From a virus, in IMG/VR virus record IMGVR_UViG_3300028388_000593, positions 1 through 21,008 of that record: 21,008 bases of DNA; one strand, written 5' to 3'. Under the pieces are notes generated by a model. The model was not told where the DNA came from, ran no database searches, and saw only the letters and a program-made list of their open reading frames with translations. The stretch's first letter is position 1. Each line of letters starts with the position of its first letter. The position numbers and the translations under genes were made by a program. This document shows positions 3,174 through 16,866 of the stretch, in pieces.

Positions 3174-3204
3174 AAAAAAAAAGGGACGGCTCATTGCCGT
3201 CCCT
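3174..3204 (-). terminator. Intrinsic terminator after the tail tube gene
   Basis: On the minus strand AGGGACGGC, loop AATGA, GCCGTCCCT, followed directly by a run of nine T (complement of A at 3174-3182). A perfect nine-pair stem with a T-run is a textbook intrinsic terminator. It lies 24 bases after the tail tube stop and only 32 bases before the preferred start of the next gene. Confidence 0.93.
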
Positions 3205-3227: not shown

Positions 3228-3779
3228 TTAAGAGTTAGTTCCTTCAGTTACAGAGACTGTTGATGTAGACAATCCACCGAATGGTGAAGCAGCAGTCGCT
3301 CCGTCTAGGAAGTTAGCCGGTAGCACCTCTTGCGCTGTGAATGTCAAGGTGTAACCTGATAGGTCACCCATTGCTGCACCTGTAACGATAGTTCCTCCGG
3401 TTACCTCTGCACCGTGTTCTAGACCTACTGCGAAGCAGTTATCGTTATAGTCTTGAACAAAGATCTGTGGACGACCGTAAGCTAGTAGCTTGATCTCGTT
3501 ATTATCCTCCTTGCTTAATTTAGGCAAGGTAAGGTTTAGTGTTTGCTCGAAGAACGTTGTTCCGTTCTCACGGCTTGAGTTGATTGCTTGCTCGAATGAG
3601 CTGTTTCCTTTCAACTCGTACTTGTAAACTGTAAAGTCGTTAGCAAAGTCGGTTACCTCTCCGTCTGATCCAAGTGTTGCTGCACCTGCATCTCCGAAGT
3701 CTGCAAAGTATACTGCTGTGATACCACCTACTACGTCTTTACAAGGAGCCTTGCGGCCCTGGGTTAAATCGCACGCCAT
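3228..3779 (-). CDS. Major tail tube protein
   Basis: A 183-residue protein expected to form the tube of the non-contractile tail. It is beta-rich, with MACDLTQGRKAPCKDVVGGI at the N-terminus, then YKYELKGNSSFEQAINSSRE (residues 52-71), NGTTFFEQTLNLTLPKLS, and AVGLEHGAEVTGGTI before a GYTLTFTAQE strand. I recall this arrangement from abundant virion proteins of marine Bacteroidetes phages, where they are annotated as structural or tail tube proteins; residues after about 160 are a Ser/Thr/Gly-rich tail. The gene stands alone between two intrinsic terminators (3806-3840 upstream, 3174-3204 downstream), suiting a protein needed in high copy. The start at 3779 has a purine-rich leader (AAAGAAAAGAAATAATG). 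Alternative: another abundant structural protein such as a decoration protein. Confidence 0.78.
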   Translation of the reverse strand: MACDLTQGRKAPCKDVVGGITAVYFADFGDAGAATLGSDGEVTDFANDFTVYKYELKGNSSFEQAINSSRENGTTFFEQTLNLTLPKLSKEDNNEIKLLAYGRPQIFVQDYNDNCFAVGLEHGAEVTGGTIVTGAAMGDLSGYTLTFTAQEVLPANFLDGATAASPFGGLSTSTVSVTEGTNS

Positions 3780-5808: not shown

Positions 5809-6108
5809 TCATCGATCAGCTACTTCTTCTGCTGCCGGCTCTTCTTCTCCTGCTTCACGTAGTTCAGCGATAACACCTTCTTCCGCTACTACAAGCACCT
5901 GGCCACCTTCTAGATCGTACTCTCCGATCGGTAGAGCTACTCGCTCGTCTTCCGTTACGATGAATACTGATTCACCTGCTTCGAAGGCTTCTGCTTCGAT
6001 TACTGTTCCGTTCTCGAGCTTTACTTGCTCGAGCTTTACTTCCTCTTGTGCAGACAAGTCTACGTTCAAGAGATGTGCAATTTTGTTTAGAGTCTCTGTC
6101 GCTTTCAT
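5809..6108 (-). CDS. Scaffold-like / head assembly protein, N-terminal part (99 residues)
   Basis: A short N-terminal helix (MKATETLNKIAHLL) is followed by a beta-rich domain with repeated turns (LENGTVIEAEAFEAGESVFI, then PIGEYDLEGGQVLVVAEEGV) and an acidic tail (EEEPAAEEVADR) that stops at 5809. I recall this beta module from phage scaffold/assembly proteins encoded between prohead protease and capsid genes, where it runs directly into an acidic helical tail; here the tail continues in the +1 frame (gene at 5592-5798). The start at 6108 is preceded by the AGTTATTTATATATG motif. The product is strongly acidic with no membrane segment. The alternative reading is a stand-alone decoration-like protein. 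Confidence 0.8.
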   Translation of the reverse strand: MKATETLNKIAHLLNVDLSAQEEVKLEQVKLENGTVIEAEAFEAGESVFIVTEDERVALPIGEYDLEGGQVLVVAEEGVIAELREAGEEEPAAEEVADR

Positions 6109-6120
6109 ATATAAATAACT
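6106..6120 (-). promoter_or_regulatory. Start-adjacent motif AGTTATTTATATATG, copy 2
   Basis: Identical over 15 bases to the copy at the 111-residue gene and one base different from the copy at 13964-13978. The final ATG is the start codon of the scaffold-like gene. The 14-base gap after the protease stop consists almost entirely of this motif. Confidence 0.55.
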
Positions 6121-6122
6121 AG

Positions 6123-7052
6123 TTATTCTTCATTTGTTGCATTTTTCGAAACGTTTTTTAACTCGTCAAGCTCTCGGAGCTTGCTCTCGGCCCAACGCTT
6201 ACCGGCCTTTCCACCCCATAGCAAGTAGCTGATTGTACCGCAGGCTTCGCTGTCTCCTTCATCGTAGTACTCTTCGGCTCTTGATAAGTAGCTATACATT
6301 CTTTTGATCGTCTCAAGGCTTACGGCCTCTTTTTGTGCGAGCTGTTGCGCTCTCACTTTTCCGACCTGGGTCGCACACTTATTGTTGACCTTCTCGTTTA
6401 GCTCGATGCCTCGTTTCGCATTGTTGCTCACTGCATCAGGGTATCCTCCGTAGCTTTCGAGCTGCTCCTTCTGCAGTTCCTCACGGATGATCTCGAGCAT
6501 CGCTTCCGCTTCTTCTTCCGGGTCCACCTGTGTTCCCATATTCACCTTGTCGGCAAAGTAGCCTTCTATGGAGAAGCCTTTTACTCTTCCGGTCTTCACG
6601 TACTTTTCCCATACGTCCTCATTGTATACCTTCATCGATACCATCCAGGTTCCGATCGGCATATCCATTCCGTAGGCTTTGCTCTTGTCTTGCTCTCCTT
6701 CTACGATCCACGACTCGACTACACTCAATCCTTGTAGGTCGATTTGATGCTCTAGTGTGCTTTTGTTTTGGTTTCCTTTGGTTAGGAACATCTCGCTCAC
6801 TTTGCGGATCGTGTCTCTCGAGAAGTAGATGTAGTATTCCTCTTCTCCGTTTTTACGGTAGATCGTCTTGTTTGGTATGAGTGCCGGTCCCATCAGGATG
6901 CGTCTCTCGCTGTCTACTTCAGCGAGCTTGATCTCCTGGTCCTTGCTCAACTTTACGAAGTTCTCTTCGATTGCAGGGTACTCAACGATTGAGATGGCCT
7001 GTACTCCGGCCATCATTTCTTCCTCGTCTAGTATCAGTTCTACTATTTTCAT
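6123..7052 (-). CDS. XkdF-like prohead serine protease with C-terminal LLWGG domain
   Basis: A 309-residue head maturation protease. The N-terminal domain follows the XkdF-like pattern: VQAISIVEYPAIEENFVKLS (17-36), RRILMGPALIPNKTIYR (50-66), the candidate catalytic His in LEHQ (H102), and the candidate nucleophile in VKGFSIEGYF (S161), preceded by PIGTWMVSMKV. Residues from about 212 form a separate domain (AKRGIELNEKV..., ending CGTISYLLWGGKAGKRWAES) that I recall attached to many phage head proteins. It should cleave scaffold and capsid N-termini inside the prohead, consistent with the scaffold-like and capsid genes that follow. The start overlaps the tape measure stop by four bases (ATGA). 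The catalytic assignment is by family analogy. Confidence 0.85.
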   Translation of the reverse strand: MKIVELILDEEEMMAGVQAISIVEYPAIEENFVKLSKDQEIKLAEVDSERRILMGPALIPNKTIYRKNGEEEYYIYFSRDTIRKVSEMFLTKGNQNKSTLEHQIDLQGLSVVESWIVEGEQDKSKAYGMDMPIGTWMVSMKVYNEDVWEKYVKTGRVKGFSIEGYFADKVNMGTQVDPEEEAEAMLEIIREELQKEQLESYGGYPDAVSNNAKRGIELNEKVNNKCATQVGKVRAQQLAQKEAVSLETIKRMYSYLSRAEEYYDEGDSEACGTISYLLWGGKAGKRWAESKLRELDELKNVSKNATNEE

Positions 7053-8938
7053 AATGATGCTGTTTTTACTCGTTTTCTATCTAGTTGCTGTTGTGTCGAT
7101 ACATCGCTTCCCACCACGTATGCTCGTACCGGACGCTCTTGTCCGATCGTCTGTGCAAGTTGGTTAATTCCGCTCGTTCCTACAACATTGAATTGTGGAG
7201 TTGAAGGTCTTGGTCCTGCACTTGTCGGTGCAGAGCTTGTTCCTACTGATGCTCCTTGGAACTGTTGGTTCTGTATCTGCTTGAGCTTCGCTATACCGAA
7301 TGCTGTTGCTAGACCGGCCTGGACCGCAGGGTAACCAGGGAAGACTGCCGTGATTGGACTCTTCTGTGCTGTGGTGTATGCAGCCTGGGCACCTTCTATT
7401 GTGCTGATCACTGTGCTTGCTGCTGATAGGGCCTTCTGCACATTGAAGGCTCTACGCTGCTGTTCTTCGCTCTCTCCTGCGAAGGCTTCTGTCAATGCTG
7501 ATACTGCTTCTAGTCCTTGCTTTGTGAGTTCGTATGCTGCAGCCATCGTTTCTTGACGCTGCTCACGTTTTGTCATCTCTGTGTCGTAGTCGATGCGCTT
7601 GCTTTCTGCTGCGTACTCCGCTTCGAGGAGTAGCTTCTCATCTAGCAGCTCCTGGTATCGGGCCGTGCCCTCTTTTGTGAGTGCTAGCTCGTCTTCGATA
7701 ATGCTGACTCTTGCGTTCTTGGTTTCCTCGGCTAGTTCCTTCTCTAGCTGTAGGCGATTGAGCACGTTTTCCTCTTGGTCTATGGCTGCTTGCTTCGCTA
7801 TCTCGTTAGCATCGATCTCGGCTTCTTTCTTGCCTCTTGCGATCTCGAGCAGTTCACGCTCGAGTGCTTCCTGGTTCGATAGTTGTTCGGATCTGAATCC
7901 TGCGATCTGTGCGTCTACTGCAGCTACCTCATTCTTTGCATCTATCAGCTCTCTTTGGAACTCGACATTGTTAGCGTCTAGTTCAGCATTCATTTGAGCT
8001 TGCTTGAGCCTGATGTTAGCATTGGCTCGCATTGCTGCTTCCTGTTCATCTAGGATTTCGCCTAGCTTATCGTTTGCTGCTATACGTTCCTCGATCGTGT
8101 TTCTCTCGTCATCACGGAGCTGTCTCTGTTGCTCCGCTTGTAGATCGTACTTCTCTATCAGGCCCTGGTTTATAACATCAGCGAGTTCGGCCTGCTTGTT
8201 CAGGTCCGTCATTGCTCCTGCTGCTTCGTAGGTCTTCTTGGTATAGTCTGCTACGGCTCCTGCTACCTTCTTGGTCCCTTCTACAACTTTACCGACTGTT
8301 CCGTCTACTCCGGTGAAGACATCGACCATCTCTGATCCTGCGTTCTTAACATCGTCAAGCGCTCCGCTAAAGTCTCCGGAGAAGACTTTCTTTACTGCGC
8401 TAGCTAGGAAGCCGAGCGTATCAAGAAACGATTCAAAGCGCTCTACGATATTTGCTACGAATGCATCCTTGAACGATATCATCGCTGCCTTCGGATCTTC
8501 GAAGATGCCTTTGAAGAATCCTGTGATGCCTCCTATGTTGTTCTCGATGAACTTCACGAAGTCGCTGAAGGCTATCTGCAGGAAGTTGAAGGCCGTGTTG
8601 AATATATCTACGACTCTTTGGTTATTGTTGAATAGGTCGTACAGGATCTCCATTGCCTTCTCCACGAGGAAGATGATTCCGGAGGCCTTACCGATGTTTC
8701 CAAATGCTTTCGATAGCTTGCCTACTCCTTTTGAGCTGTTCTCGGCTGCTGTCTCTACAGCCTCTACACTCTTCTTGGTGTCTCCTAGCTCCTTATTGAC
8801 ATCTCCTAGGCCTTTCTCAAGGCCTGTGGACATCTCCTTGATAGCATCCTTGAGCTCATTGATCGCACCGACCAACTCGTTAGTTTGGTCCGTTGCGTTT
8901 GACTCTACGTCTATTTGTACTGTTTCTTTGATCGCCAT
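7049..8938 (-). CDS. Tail tape measure protein
   Basis: A 629-residue protein, short for the family. Residues 1-75 contain a predicted coiled coil (ELKDAIKEMSTGLEKGLGDV), residues about 78-200 are hydrophobic and Phe/Gly-rich (IIFLVEKAMEILYDLF, FLQIAFSDFVKFIENNIGGI), typical of the membrane-interacting part of tape measure proteins, and residues about 240-470 are a long Glu/Gln/Arg-rich coiled coil. The C-terminal part has an Ala-rich segment (VISTIEGAQAAYTTAQKSPI) followed by a low-complexity Gln/Ser/Pro tail. It sets tail length and is packed inside the tube. The start lies inside the 40-residue gene upstream, and the stop overlaps the protease start. A length of 629 residues would predict a tail of roughly 90-95 nm if about 1.5 angstrom per residue applies. 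Confidence 0.88.
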   Translation of the reverse strand: MAIKETVQIDVESNATDQTNELVGAINELKDAIKEMSTGLEKGLGDVNKELGDTKKSVEAVETAAENSSKGVGKLSKAFGNIGKASGIIFLVEKAMEILYDLFNNNQRVVDIFNTAFNFLQIAFSDFVKFIENNIGGITGFFKGIFEDPKAAMISFKDAFVANIVERFESFLDTLGFLASAVKKVFSGDFSGALDDVKNAGSEMVDVFTGVDGTVGKVVEGTKKVAGAVADYTKKTYEAAGAMTDLNKQAELADVINQGLIEKYDLQAEQQRQLRDDERNTIEERIAANDKLGEILDEQEAAMRANANIRLKQAQMNAELDANNVEFQRELIDAKNEVAAVDAQIAGFRSEQLSNQEALERELLEIARGKKEAEIDANEIAKQAAIDQEENVLNRLQLEKELAEETKNARVSIIEDELALTKEGTARYQELLDEKLLLEAEYAAESKRIDYDTEMTKREQRQETMAAAYELTKQGLEAVSALTEAFAGESEEQQRRAFNVQKALSAASTVISTIEGAQAAYTTAQKSPITAVFPGYPAVQAGLATAFGIAKLKQIQNQQFQGASVGTSSAPTSAGPRPSTPQFNVVGTSGINQLAQTIGQERPVRAYVVGSDVSTQQQLDRKRVKTASL

Positions 8939-12261: not shown

Positions 12262-12788
12262 TAGAATATATCTTTTAGTGTGTACTTCATAAATTCTTCA
12301 ATGTCTAGCTTGAAGGCTTTTCTGATCTCTTGAGGCATCCTCTTGTAGCCCAGGGCAAAGGCCCGGCTGAAGAAGTGACTTGGCTTGATGCCGTCTCTGT
12401 AGATCTTGTTCTGTATTGCGAAGGCTAGGCTGCGTCTCTTGATGAACCTTCCTTTCTCGTCTCTGATGCTTTTGAATCCTCTCTTCACGATCCACTTGTC
12501 TAGTGGTCCGATTGGAGGCTTCTTGTTCTTGAAGCTGTACGGTGTGTTGTACTTCTTCTTGATCCCACTCACACCTTTGTCCTGGAACTCTCCGTAGTCC
12601 TCCATAAAGAACTCGAAGCTGAAGCTCACTCCACTCTTACTAGGCTTGCTAGCATAGCCGATTGAGTTGTACAGCTTCTTGCTTACGTTCTTCTTCTTCT
12701 TCGTGAGGTTTGTTCGTGCTTGCTGCACGACATACTTCCCGAACTTGTCGAAGGTTTCTTCTAGGTGTTTAGGATCAAACGCAGGCAC
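12261..12788 (-). CDS. HK97 gp10-like tail completion / neck protein
   Basis: A very basic 175-residue protein. FDKFGKYVVQQARTNLTKKK (13-32) followed by LYNSIGYASKPSKSGVSFSF (39-58) and YGEFQDKGVSG (69-79) fits the HK97 gp10 pattern, in which an N-terminal helix precedes strands and an EFxDKG/EfGt-like turn. The C-terminal half has a helical segment (PSHFFSRAFALGYKRMPQEI). Proteins of this family sit in the neck and link the head connector to the tail terminator. It overlaps the upstream tail terminator-like gene by 14 bases. The family assignment is by recalled pattern; length is slightly above the usual 110-150 residues. Confidence 0.72.
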   Translation of the reverse strand: MPAFDPKHLEETFDKFGKYVVQQARTNLTKKKKNVSKKLYNSIGYASKPSKSGVSFSFEFFMEDYGEFQDKGVSGIKKKYNTPYSFKNKKPPIGPLDKWIVKRGFKSIRDEKGRFIKRRSLAFAIQNKIYRDGIKPSHFFSRAFALGYKRMPQEIRKAFKLDIEEFMKYTLKDIF

Positions 12789-13242
12789 TGATATCTCTGT
12801 TTGATATACTTATGTTCAATGTCATATCCCATCCTGCTAGCTCATTGTCGAAGCGCTCTACGAATGGCTCCGCACTCGGAGCGCCTTCAATCTGATACAG
12901 GTCGCTAAAGATTGTTCCTCTGCTCATATCGGTCCATAGCTTGTTGGCTACCTGGAGCATCGTGTTGTGCACGTCTTGCTCATTGTTATTGCCTCTGAAT
13001 GGAATGTCTTCTCTTGGATCGTCTTTGTTGTAGTCTACCACATCTGCAAACAGGATGCTTACGTTGAATGTCATCACGTGATCTGCAAAGGTCACGTTCT
13101 GCACTACGATGTGCGCTAGTGGGAATATCGTTTGCTTTGCTAGGTCCACCTCGAGCAGGTCTCCTGTCGTTACAGTGGTGATGCTCGGGCTAGCCTCGAG
13201 CGTTGTTTTTAGCTTCTCTAGTAAGTCGTAGTATCCTGTCAT
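12775..13242 (-). CDS. Tail terminator-like protein
   Basis: A 155-residue alpha/beta protein: YYDLLEKLKTTLEASPSITT (4-23), LLEVDLAKQTIFPLAHIVVQ (29-48), an MTFNVSILFADVV strand, GNNNEQDVHNTMLQVANKLW (84-103), and AEPFVERFDNELAGWDMTLN (129-148). The pattern of a first helix, paired strands, a long helix and a final beta strand is that of tail terminators (gpU/gp17-like), which cap the tail tube. I recall close relatives, including the FRGNNNEQDV stretch, in marine Bacteroidetes phages. Its ATG makes a four-base overlap (ATGA) with the stop of the -1 frame extension of the tail chaperone gene, so it is probably coupled to translation of that frame. Confidence 0.72.
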   Translation of the reverse strand: MTGYYDLLEKLKTTLEASPSITTVTTGDLLEVDLAKQTIFPLAHIVVQNVTFADHVMTFNVSILFADVVDYNKDDPREDIPFRGNNNEQDVHNTMLQVANKLWTDMSRGTIFSDLYQIEGAPSAEPFVERFDNELAGWDMTLNISISNRDISACV

Positions 13243-13484
13243 TTCTTTTTCAACATCTGTTGTTCTAGTTCTATCTTCTCTTTCTCGAACTCTAGGTACA
13301 TCATAGCTGTATGTAAGGAGAGTCTAGCCACTTTCTCAAACCTTGTAGGGTCTCCTTGAGCGAGTGCATAGAAGCTTGTGTACCATCCCCACTTTCGAGC
13401 GAAGTTTTCTCCGCTACTGTATCCTTCTCCTGTGCCTCCAAAGAGTCCACCATAGCTATCGACAATTCCGTTCCTAAAGTCCAA
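13239..13484 (-). CDS. -1 frame extension of the tail assembly chaperone (gpT-like)
   Basis: An 81-codon frame beginning at a TTG within a nine-T run and ending at 13239 with an ATGA overlap onto the next gene. It reads LDFRNGIVDSYGGLFGGTGE and later RKWGWYTSFYALAQGDPTRF, a pattern I recall from proteins following the chaperone-like protein in marine Bacteroidetes phages. There is no ATG. The frame is -1 relative to the 221-residue gene, and the T9 run supplies a T TTT TTT slippery heptamer. A single slip after F161 would give a 242-residue fusion. I therefore read it as the frameshift-made C-terminus of a gpG-gpT-type chaperone rather than a separate TTG-started gene, although the latter is not excluded. 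Confidence 0.75.
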   Translation of the reverse strand: MDFRNGIVDSYGGLFGGTGEGYSSGENFARKWGWYTSFYALAQGDPTRFEKVARLSLHTAMMYLEFEKEKIELEQQMLKKK

Positions 13485-13966
13485 AAAAAAACCAACGCAC
13501 CAAAGACCACGTCCATCGTGACTTGCTTCATTGTGTCTTTATACTTGTGGCTGCTCTCGTATTCTTCGATACGATACAGCTCTCCTTTCTCTTCCGTTAC
13601 CGGCCTGTAGAGGATAGCCATTGCATTGTGCATCGTTTCCCACTCTACGATCGTGCCGTCCAGGTCCACATACTCTCCGAAGGTTATATCCTCCAGGTTC
13701 GGTATGAATCCGAACTTCTTGTCTTTGATCCTGGTCTTCGTCTTCAGCATATGCTTCTTCTCGAAGTATCCGAAGATGCGTTTGCTGATCCTGGCTACCT
13801 CCTTGTAGGGCATATTGTTAACGATGATCAAGGGCACGTTGCAGAAGATCTCAATAGCTTTCTGTGCTATGAACATCTCGTCTTCGCTTTGGAGCGAGAC
13901 GAAGCGTTGATATTGATCTAGTGGTATCTCGTGCAATCCTTCCGGGACAATGATCTCTACCTCCAT
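13301..13966 (-). CDS. Probable tail assembly chaperone (gpG-like), 221 residues
   Basis: It begins MEVEIIVPEGLHEIPLDQYQ (1-20), then MFIAQKAIEIFCNVPLIIVN (31-50) and KFGFIPNLEDITFGEYVDLD (83-102), a layout I recall from putative tail assembly chaperones of Bacteroidetes phages. It is mainly helical, with FGALVFFWTLG (155-165) spanning the T9 run. After F161 the zero frame continues for 60 residues (ending WLDSPYIQL), while the -1 frame yields another 80. Chaperone pairs made by frameshifting coat the tape measure protein before tube assembly. Unusually, it directly follows the large terminase gene and lies over 4 kb before the tape measure gene. The start is preceded by the AGTTACTTATATATG motif; the gap to the terminase stop is 36 bases. 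Confidence 0.75.
   Translation of the reverse strand: MEVEIIVPEGLHEIPLDQYQRFVSLQSEDEMFIAQKAIEIFCNVPLIIVNNMPYKEVARISKRIFGYFEKKHMLKTKTRIKDKKFGFIPNLEDITFGEYVDLDGTIVEWETMHNAMAILYRPVTEEKGELYRIEEYESSHKYKDTMKQVTMDVVFGALVFFWTLGTELSIAMVDSLEAQEKDTVAEKTSLESGDGTQASMHSLKETLQGLRKWLDSPYIQL
13483..13491 (-). promoter_or_regulatory. T9 slippery site for -1 ribosomal frameshifting
   Basis: Nine consecutive T on the minus strand, read GTT TTT TTT TGG in the zero frame. Codons 160 and 161 (both TTT) can re-pair perfectly after a -1 slip, giving the X XXY YYZ heptamer T TTT TTT. The -1 frame then runs 81 codons and ends in an ATGA overlap with the next gene. Confidence 0.7.
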
Positions 13967-14002: not shown

Positions 14003-15160
14003 TTACCTTACTGCGTATCTTCCGTAGTTCGGTCTGCTCATTCTATTGTATGTCGCATATCTCATTGCATCGATAGCGTGATTGTATTGATCGATTGGTT
14101 TGTTTAGGATCTTGCCGTTTGTGTCCTCTACCCACTTGTAGTTTCTCATCTCTTTGATGAGGTTTACGCTTCCCTTGGTGATGTAGATCTTGTGTCTCTT
14201 GAGCATATCGATACCGGCCATTACGCTGTCCGGTCCTTTGGCTGTCGGCTTGATGTTCCACCCGAACAACTGCAGCTCCTTGATGCTCTTCGGTTCTGCA
14301 CTATCAGCGAATATCTCTGCTCTACGGTCCAGGTTCATTCCCTGGAGCGTCTTGTGAATGTCTCTGTTGGTTAGTCCTGTTTGGTATAGCTTCTCATCAA
14401 AGTATAGGTCTCCATCGTATTCGTAGGCTACCACGAGTGTTGTAGGGTCGTTTGTGAACCCGAAGTCCATTCCCATTGCTACCTGTCTTGCTCCCTCCGG
14501 GACCTTGTCTGTTTCGTGGTATTGGAAGATGAGCGCCTTGGACGCTCCTCTCTCTCCTAGTCCGTATACCTGCCAATACTGTTCGTCTGTTTCCTTGAGC
14601 CTCTCGATCTCATCCACGATCGTCTGTGGTAGGAATGGATTGTCTAGGTATGTGGTCTTGTGGAACTCTGCATCGTTTCTTGGTATAACCTTGTCGTATA
14701 TCCAATGGTATTCATCACTCGGGTTGTAGTCAATGATTACTCTTCCGTTGGTCCGGAGGATGAGCTGCTGCCAATCTTCGTAGTGCAGCTCGTTTGCCTC
14801 ATTGATATACAGCAGGTCCCTCTTGCGTCCTCTTACCTTCTGTGGCTGATCTAGTGAGATGAACTCCACCATATTGCCTCCTAGCATATATTCGTGTGAG
14901 CTCTTGTTGTGATTGCCTGGATTGTATTGTCCGACTCTTTCGAGGATCTCGAAGAAGTCTCTCATCACTGATGATCGTACTGCCGGGAAGGTCTTCCGGC
15001 ATATGGTTATTGTTTGTCCCTTCGCTTCGGATAGGCAATAGTAGATTATCCATATCAGGATGTTGTAGGTCTTTCCTGATCGGGTACCTCCTTGCTCTAT
15101 GATTATCTTCTTGTCAGCTTGGAGTAGGTGTCTGAATACAACATTAGTCTCTAGCTGCAT
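14003..15160 (-). CDS. terL: Terminase large subunit
   Basis: A 385-residue DNA-packaging motor. The ATPase domain has Walker A GGTRSGKT (24-31), Walker B DLLYINEA with catalytic E121 (115-122), and the coupling-motif strand VIIDYNPSDE (141-150). The nuclease domain (RNase H-like) has MGMDFGFTNDPT (229-240, D232), FADSAEP (284-290, D286) and YNHAIDAMRYA (359-369, D364), the three acidic residues that bind the two metal ions. The protein is short for the family but all motifs are present. It overlaps the small subunit by 17 bases, the usual pairing. It works with the portal, which here lies some 11 kb downstream. The motifs are seen directly; the cleavage mode (cos or headful) cannot be told. 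Confidence 0.96.
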   Translation of the reverse strand: MQLETNVVFRHLLQADKKIIIEQGGTRSGKTYNILIWIIYYCLSEAKGQTITICRKTFPAVRSSVMRDFFEILERVGQYNPGNHNKSSHEYMLGGNMVEFISLDQPQKVRGRKRDLLYINEANELHYEDWQQLILRTNGRVIIDYNPSDEYHWIYDKVIPRNDAEFHKTTYLDNPFLPQTIVDEIERLKETDEQYWQVYGLGERGASKALIFQYHETDKVPEGARQVAMGMDFGFTNDPTTLVVAYEYDGDLYFDEKLYQTGLTNRDIHKTLQGMNLDRRAEIFADSAEPKSIKELQLFGWNIKPTAKGPDSVMAGIDMLKRHKIYITKGSVNLIKEMRNYKWVEDTNGKILNKPIDQYNHAIDAMRYATYNRMSRPNYGRYAVR

Positions 15161-15600: not shown

Positions 15601-16866
15601 TTATACCTGCTCTCCGTTTATTTTAATTGTTATGTGTTCGTCTAGTTGCTGCATCCGGTCTATAATGACCTGACAGTATTTTGGGTCTAGTTCTATTCCG
15701 TAGCATTTTCTTCCTAGTTGGTGACAGGCTACCATTGTGCTTCCTGATCCGGAGAATGGGTCTCCTACGATCTGTCCTCTCTTGCTGCTGTTTTTTACCA
15801 GGTCTCCTACTAGTGGGATAGGTTTCATTGTTGGATGCACGTCATTCTTACTTGGTTTGTCGTGGTGTATGATCGTGCTTGGTCCTTCATTGATTTCTTC
15901 GAGCAGTTTTACTAGCTCGTCTTTCTTCATCTTGCTGAAGTCTACCTCTTTTTCTATTACCGTAGGTTTTGTTCTATCGTTTGTGAAGTAGTGTCCTGCT
16001 CCCTCTTTCCATCCGTATAGGATTGGCTCGTGTTTCCATTGGTAGTCTTGCCTTCCTAGGACGATGCTGTTCTTTACCCATATCAGGCACTGCTTGAGGA
16101 GCAGGCCGCTTCTTTGCCATCCTAGTCGGAATGCGTTGCTTGCGCTGTCAGCGTGAAAGACATACCATCCTCCTCCTTTCTTTGTCTTCTCTGCATTCGC
16201 ATCGTAGAAGCCCTGGAGGAACTGCATAAAGTCTTCGTCACCCATCTTATCGTTTTGGATCTTCAGGCCGTTGCTGCCTTCGTAGTCCACATTGTATGGT
16301 GGATCCGTCACTACCAGGTCGTAGTATTCTTCTCCTGTGAGTCTCTCCACCACCTCGTGTGAGGTGCTGTCATCGCAGATGAGTCTGTGTACCTCTTCTC
16401 CTGCTTTGTGGAAGGTTATTAGGTCTCCTTGCTTGACGTACATCTCTGTTTGCTCTGTAGGCTCGTAGTGATCGTCTGTTGCTTCCTCTTCGTCTAGCTG
16501 TGCCCAATCCTCGGGGAAGTCCATTCCCCACTCTAGTAAGTCTTCGGCTTCCCAATCGTTTGCTAGGGCATCCCAATCCCATTCTCCGAAGGAGCTATTG
16601 TCCTTTATAATAAACTCTTTCTCCTGGTCCTCGGTGAGGTTGCTTGCTTTGATGATCGGCACCTCTTTGAGGCCTGCCTCTTGACAAGCCCGGAGGCGCA
16701 TATTGCCTCCGAGCACGATCATCTCATCGTTAACAACTATAGGTCTCAAGTCTAGCATCTCCGGGAACTCTTGGATGCTCTTTACGAGCTTCTCGAACTT
16801 GTGTCCTTTGATCGTTCTCGGGTTGTTTGGGTTAGGACGTACCTGTGTTATTTTTACTCTTTCCAT
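15601..16866 (-). CDS. ParB-like domain fused to DNA (adenine/cytosine amino) methyltransferase
   Basis: A 421-residue two-domain protein. Residues 1-75 are a ParB/Srx-type domain (PNPNNPRTIKGHKFEKLVKS, then RPIVVND and VLGGNMRLRACQEAG, 41-65). After an acidic linker, residues about 140-410 are a beta-type amino-methyltransferase: catalytic DPPY at 188-191 (VVTDPPYNVDYEG), then HPTMKPIPLV (344-353) and the AdoMet-binding DPFSGSGSTM (369-378). It should methylate N6-adenine or N4-cytosine in a short site; no restriction partner is seen, so protection from host restriction or regulation of packaging or transcription is likely. The gene overlaps the upstream nuclease stop by one base. ParB-methylase fusions beside terminase genes are common in phages; the target site cannot be told. 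Confidence 0.9.
   Translation of the reverse strand: MERVKITQVRPNPNNPRTIKGHKFEKLVKSIQEFPEMLDLRPIVVNDEMIVLGGNMRLRACQEAGLKEVPIIKASNLTEDQEKEFIIKDNSSFGEWDWDALANDWEAEDLLEWGMDFPEDWAQLDEEEATDDHYEPTEQTEMYVKQGDLITFHKAGEEVHRLICDDSTSHEVVERLTGEEYYDLVVTDPPYNVDYEGSNGLKIQNDKMGDEDFMQFLQGFYDANAEKTKKGGGWYVFHADSASNAFRLGWQRSGLLLKQCLIWVKNSIVLGRQDYQWKHEPILYGWKEGAGHYFTNDRTKPTVIEKEVDFSKMKKDELVKLLEEINEGPSTIIHHDKPSKNDVHPTMKPIPLVGDLVKNSSKRGQIVGDPFSGSGSTMVACHQLGRKCYGIELDPKYCQVIIDRMQQLDEHITIKINGEQV

Follow-up and report, generated by a model that had tools for sequence, protein, structure and literature searches.

Tail-chaperone genes that switch reading frame are textbook examples of ribosomal frameshifting, and models of gpG/gpGT do not usually consider that the short form may need a C-terminus of its own. 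Chaperone frameshifts are regarded as ribosomal, phage lambda being a case of low-level −1 ribosomal frameshifting, and stimulatory elements are not obligatory for some tailed-phage frameshifts (PMC5009743). Slippage by bacterial RNA polymerase (RNAP) has been shown at runs of nine A/T (PMC6260861), is efficient in vivo (PMC5009743), and was detected in one report on runs of only 7 T (PMC6260861). A large fraction of bacterial genomes show selection against A/T runs within genes once these reach nine, and in mxiE a U run yields the longer product (PMC1088944). The hallmark of such slippage is a heterogeneous mRNA population in which Us have been gained or lost. In the open-access literature, we found no paper on the frameshift described here or on a tail chaperone expressed by transcriptional slippage.

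The window, by which we mean the whole 21,008-nt stretch of viral DNA analyzed here (IMG/VR record IMGVR_UViG_3300028388_000593), contains on its minus strand a gene at 13239–13966 with two predicted products: a 0-frame product of 221 aa and a −1 fusion product of 242 aa. The start codon is the ATG at 13966, 36 nt past the stop codon of terL (14003–15160, minus strand; PF04466, E = 1.7e-24; PF17288, E = 3e-21). Specifically, the 0-frame ORF (13301–13966; phrog_32199, E = 5e-12) encodes the short form, comprising a shared N domain (codons 1–161, 13484–13966; predicted helices and β hairpins, pLDDT 86–97) followed by a 60-residue alternative tail, while the −1 frame extension (13239–13484; 81 codons; weak match to phrog_38404, E = 0.005) carries a conserved NFxxKWGWY motif. 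The frames diverge at a run of nine Ts (T9) at 13491–13483, read GTT TTT TTT TGG, and the 0-frame tail and the −1 extension share the bases from 13301 to 13484. The original prediction had proposed this run and a −1 slip into a 242-residue product ending in an overlap with the next gene, and the minus-strand coordinates bear out both: the fusion ends with TGA at 13241–13239, overlapping as ATGA the ATG at 13242–13240 of the next gene (12775–13242, minus strand; phrog_30964). The statement that the extension has no ATG holds only near its beginning; ATG codons are present late in the extension (MM at about residues 62–63 and M near residue 77).

The gene order in the window is terS, terL, the two-product gene, genes without named families, a tape-measure-like gene (7049–8938, minus strand; phrog_1538, E = 1.4e-8), a protease, a capsid-like gene, and the portal. 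The two-product gene thus lies, as had been proposed, directly after terL and far before the tape measure, at a distance of about 4.3 kb. The position after terL is common to Nonlabens phage P12024S, a Flagellimonas prophage, and other related prophages, and is no oddity of the window phage. Adjoining terS is a 421-aa protein (15601–16866, minus strand) in which a ParB-like nuclease domain is fused to a DNA methyltransferase domain.

We fetched relatives separately with the 0-frame ORF and with the −1 extension as queries. In the extension-anchored set, all 57 loci have T9 or T10 at the junction, the extension is always in the −1 frame, and no locus has an in-frame fusion of both halves. A second set, for which the N domain was the only anchor and neither the run nor the extension played a part, has T9 in 78 of 80 loci and T10 in the other two. 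Adding more distant N-domain-anchored loci brings the census to 246 distinct junctions, which form 73 clusters when grouped at 60% identity, with T9 in 213 junctions, T10 in 33, and a shorter run in none; the WGWY extension is in the −1 frame in nearly every junction where it could be located. A further, distant extension-anchored set has a run of 9 or 10 in every IMG/VR locus. Very divergent prophages in Bacteroidia genomes keep T9, the Flagellimonas genome also carries the site, and at least 586 IMG/VR stretches match the two-product gene family. Homologues that lack the run and have two ATG-started genes, the case that the original prediction named as speaking against it, occur nowhere among several hundred loci. 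A tblastn search of three divergent fusions against phage records gave no match, and the C domains of the most divergent members align too variably to serve as a query.

Runs of this length are rare elsewhere. In particular, the other sense coding sequences of related contigs contain one run of at least nine Ts in 634 kb, only one of 419 Phe-Phe pairs elsewhere in the same coding sequences lies within a T9 run, and of 134 T runs around TTTTTT elsewhere, 128 have a length of 6–7. Three T9 runs in all lie on the transcribed strand of the window, the other two being at 3182–3174 and 19148–19140. Both of these directly follow GC-rich hairpins, and these hairpin and U-tract sites (3207–3174 and about 19168–19140, minus strand) are intrinsic terminators after the genes at 3779–3228 and 19433–19158; the TTG at 3175, which coincides with the end of the first U-tract, is probably miscalled as a start.

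The run occurs in five codon registers: xTT TTT TTT Txx (206 of the 246 junctions), xTT TTT TTT TTx (28), TTT TTT TTT Txx (5), TTT TTT TTT CTG (5), and NNT TTT TTT TTG (2; for example AAT or GGT TTT TTT TTG). The flanks compensate for one another. Where the base past the run is not T, the preceding codon is TTT; where the preceding codon gives one T, the following codon gives two. Likewise, Leu after Phe-Phe is encoded by TTG or TTA, and by CTG only in the five cases in which three TTT codons already provide nine Ts. In the most divergent prophages and viruses, the proteins of which are barely alignable, the junction reads GCT, ACT, TAT, or AGT TTT TTT TTR, with exactly nine Ts. When flanks are paired at random across clusters, all runs reach nine or more in 0.011% of permutations (p = 1.1e-4 at the level of clusters, which share ancestry and are not fully independent). 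In these sequences, the conserved unit is a total run length of at least nine in any of five registers and not just a slippery heptamer, an observation that is new here.

A slippery heptamer is nonetheless present, in that NNT TTT TTT, which is of the X_XXY_YYZ type, is in phase in all 246 junctions. The same two-product chaperone gene might therefore be decoded by classical −1 ribosomal frameshifting, in which two tRNA-Phe slip in tandem on U_UUU_UUU and no stimulatory structure takes part, in keeping with the description of known chaperone shifts as ribosomal and, in some cases, free of stimulators (PMC5009743). The extra Ts would then reflect residue preferences beside Phe-Phe or a modest gain in efficiency; in the main register the flanking residues are V/I/L and Y/W, the codons of which carry extra Ts, and some of the conservation of the flanking Ts is explained by a preference for hydrophobic or aromatic residues around Phe-Phe. 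However, if only the heptamer mattered, some runs of 7 or 8 would be expected, none of which the census contains although T runs around TTTTTT elsewhere are mostly of 6–7, and the compensating register changes hold the length at nine. Ribosomal frameshifting in place of polymerase slippage is a serious candidate to which we give somewhat less than an even chance.

Slippage by RNAP is, in our assessment, at least as likely as ribosomal frameshifting, because a length of at least nine is kept across registers, nine A/T is the reported threshold for slippage, and there is no conserved RNA structure. Specifically, RNAalifold found no consensus pairs in 160 columns around the site, which removes an RNA stimulator from consideration, and inspection by eye revealed no Shine-Dalgarno-like element upstream of the run; the absence of conserved RNA structure itself fits either route. 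We put the chance that polymerase slippage is the main route of the frame switch at about even, and it is quite possible that both routes operate together. The enzyme would likely be the host polymerase, because the phage encodes a sigma-like factor and no RNA polymerase gene was noticed in the window.

Both C-terminal tails are real, coding, and under selection. To obtain an expectation for the 0-frame, we held the amino acids of the extension fixed and drew its codons anew according to the codon usage of the genome itself. Past the run, the first 0-frame stop lies at a mean of 178 nt in the observed sequences vs 39 nt in the synonymous shuffles, and the summed 0-frame open length over 53 clusters is 9447 nt vs 2093 ± 317 nt expected. 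The identical procedure applied to the N domain gives no excess, indicating that the shuffle null is calibrated and ruling out that the open 0-frame only mirrors constraints on the −1 protein. Synonymous sites are frozen in the overlap only: among moderately diverged pairs, fourfold-site identity is 97% (codons 1–12), 73%, and 79% inside the overlap, and 47% in the N domain and 51% past the 0-frame stop. Part of the 97% value for codons 1–12 may stem from an element that acts at the nucleotide level. Residues Leu164 and Leu168 of the 0-frame, just past the run, are invariant in a 53-sequence alignment. The proposal that both alternative C-termini look protein-like is thus upheld, and the long dual-coded overlap shows that the short form, too, depends on a C-terminus of its own.

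The third (+1) frame is closed by a TAG at 13474–13476 (minus strand), 6 nt past the run, and a stop within 9 nt of the run is present in 245 of 246 junctions. This stop may be a side effect of Leu (YTA) and Arg/Lys (ARR) being encoded in frames 0 and −1, respectively; we give no weight to it as a designed guard, since it follows from the residues of the other two frames. Products arising from slippage in the opposite direction would, besides, be cut short by this stop.

The locus could be read in another way as two separate genes, with the second half translated alone from a TTG codon or by termination-reinitiation. The first −1 codon in the window is indeed TTG, and databases annotate the halves of the P12024S homologue apart, as gp38 and gp39. 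Among 160 relatives, however, the first −1 codon is TTA in 107, TTG in 41, and TTT in 12, and before the WGWY motif a start codon of any kind is absent in 113 and an ATG is present in one. Because the first −1 codon is mostly TTA and an ATG before WGWY so rare, no separate start for the second half is conserved, and we rule out an independent second gene. Moreover, the annotated start of P12024S gp39 sits downstream, within the −1 ORF, and two separate genes would leave the T run without a reason for being kept. Overall, we regard this reading as very improbable.

Fold comparison identifies viral models in which one continuous chain matches the models of both the N domain and the extension. 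The single-chain entries in BFVD are A0A516L5A8, A0A516L611, A0A6J5N0W0, A0A6J7WJY4, A0A6J7WDG4, A0A6J5MY57, A0A6J5SVK3, and A0A6J7XA66. The lineages in question may make only the fusion, or may have lost the frameshift. Since such single-chain proteins exist, the fusion product has a real counterpart among proteins elsewhere.

An error in the sequence, or decay of the gene, would also produce a −1 relation, if a T10 misread as T9 concealed a single in-frame ORF. Homopolymers are error-prone, and one pair of loci may be a case in point: L299 has T9 vs T10 in its otherwise similar sister L305, which is in another register. In L299 the extension is in the +1 frame and the 0-frame closes 3 codons past the run; the difference between the two loci is either a natural length variant or an assembly error. 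For the family at large, the same −1 relation is shared by several hundred assemblies obtained independently, a cultured phage, and cellular genomes, prophages among them, and there is positive evidence of selection on the 0-frame tail. An artefact or pseudogene is thereby ruled out, its probability being the smallest that we assign to any reading.

With regard to function, the gene products have no match in Pfam, in NCBIfam, or in PDB sequences. All 53 representatives match phrog_32199, and the PHROG matches are to unknown families except for weak matches to phrog_166 ('tail protein') in 4 of the 53 members (best E = 9e-4). The model of the 0-frame product (pLDDT 84) has no fold match in the PDB, the extension is modelled as three helices (pLDDT 82), and among viral models, named tail chaperones are matched only at insignificant levels (E = 0.58 and 1.8). 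Flavobacterium phage 6H gp10 (NC_021867, 10927–10047), which lies about 2.6 kb before the annotated tape measure gene of that phage, is a fold relative of the N domain. A 300-nt gap after gp10 contains an unannotated −1 frame ORF of about 100 codons. We rejected 6H gp10 as an instance of the same device, since it has only T6 and a −1 stop right after; gp10 and the following ORF may form a chaperone pair that is decoded in another way or contains a sequencing error.

By analogy, the architecture and the neighbouring genes indicate that the two-product gene probably has a tail-chaperone role. The part of the original prediction that concerns organization, with one gene yielding two products through a −1 change at a T run, stands; the identity of the gene as a gpG/gpGT tail chaperone is not established. 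A rival reading keeps this architecture but takes the product to be some other assembly factor, such as one for the neck or tail terminator, as the location of the gene between terL and connector-like genes might suggest. In favor of this reading are the great distance to the tape-measure gene, the lack of homology to named chaperones, and the absence of a significant fold match to one (best E = 0.58). On the other side, structural and tail genes lie directly downstream in these genomes, a shared N domain with alternative tails made by a −1 shift is typical of gpG/gpGT, and both the weak 'tail protein' matches and the position of 6H gp10 ahead of its tape measure gene point to the tail. We therefore consider another assembly factor unlikely.

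We propose the following mechanism, in which the gene would give rise to two proteins with a common 161-residue N domain. Unshifted mRNA would yield the 221-aa form with the 60-residue tail, while in a minority of events a −1 shift at the T run would yield the 242-aa form with the WGWY tail. Bacterial RNAP would slip on the nine-T run and produce some mRNAs with ten Us, which would then be translated normally; ribosomal slippage on U_UUU_UUU may contribute besides. If lambda gpG/gpGT is a guide, the short copies would be numerous and the long ones few, and during assembly of the tail they would attach to the tape measure and bring in the tail-tube protein. The explanation as a whole, namely a two-product, tail-chaperone-like gene with the frame most likely switched during transcription, is one that we moderately favor. 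The broader proposition, that a family of tail-assembly genes in Bacteroidota phages sets the ratio of two products by RNAP slippage, and not by ribosomal frameshifting, on a T run that never falls below nine, with two selected tails on about 180 shared bases, is in our view evenly poised. The two-product gene is real and widespread; a role of the gpG/gpGT type is our best guess and not a demonstrated membership.

The family is large and largely unannotated, and the signal that it conserves is nine Ts in a row, whatever the codon register. An annotation rule of 'T9 after terL in Bacteroidota phages' would join genes that are now split, such as P12024S gp38 and gp39, and the question of ribosome vs polymerase is directly testable in cultured phage.

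Nonlabens phage P12024S (NC_018271) provides the closest comparison. Its gp38 and gp39 (phrog_32199 and phrog_38404) are the halves of one frame-switched gene at 23136–23830 (6001–6695 of locus L072), with the T9 in gp38 and with gp39 being the end of the −1 ORF. This homologous gene, a direct distant relative at about 22–30% identity, likewise follows terL, reads CTT TTT TTT TAT at its T9, and has a −1 WSWY domain. It differs in being annotated as two hypothetical proteins with the frameshift not noted, and in having a 0-frame tail of only 26 codons, which indicates that tail length can vary.

Comparison with lambda gpG/gpGT reveals a similar plan. In both systems, a common N domain is followed by a short 0-frame or a longer −1 ending, the gene lies in a structural cluster, there is little or no stimulatory RNA structure, and the downstream gene is closely coupled. 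The frame change in the 3′ part of one gene that marks gpG/gpGT is found here as the conserved −1 relation of the predicted products. In chaperones of the gpG/gpGT type, the tape measure is bound by the N part and the tail tube by the −1 part, and neither product is retained in the virion. Differences include the site, which is a seven-base slippery sequence in lambda vs T9 or T10 in the present family; the point of the shift, which is near the 3′ end of g (PMC5009743) vs about 55–60 dual-coded codons here; and the position of the present gene after terL and not immediately upstream of the tape-measure gene, with no detectable homology. In its nine-base A/T run at the frame junction, the present family resembles genes expressed by transcriptional slippage (Shigella mxiE, Thermus dnaX with A9, and bacterial IS elements), and in mxiE the slip is required for the longer product (PMC1088944, PMC3711429). 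Those are cellular or transposon genes, in contrast to the phage gene described here, in which polymerase slippage, if true, would be a new way of setting a chaperone ratio.
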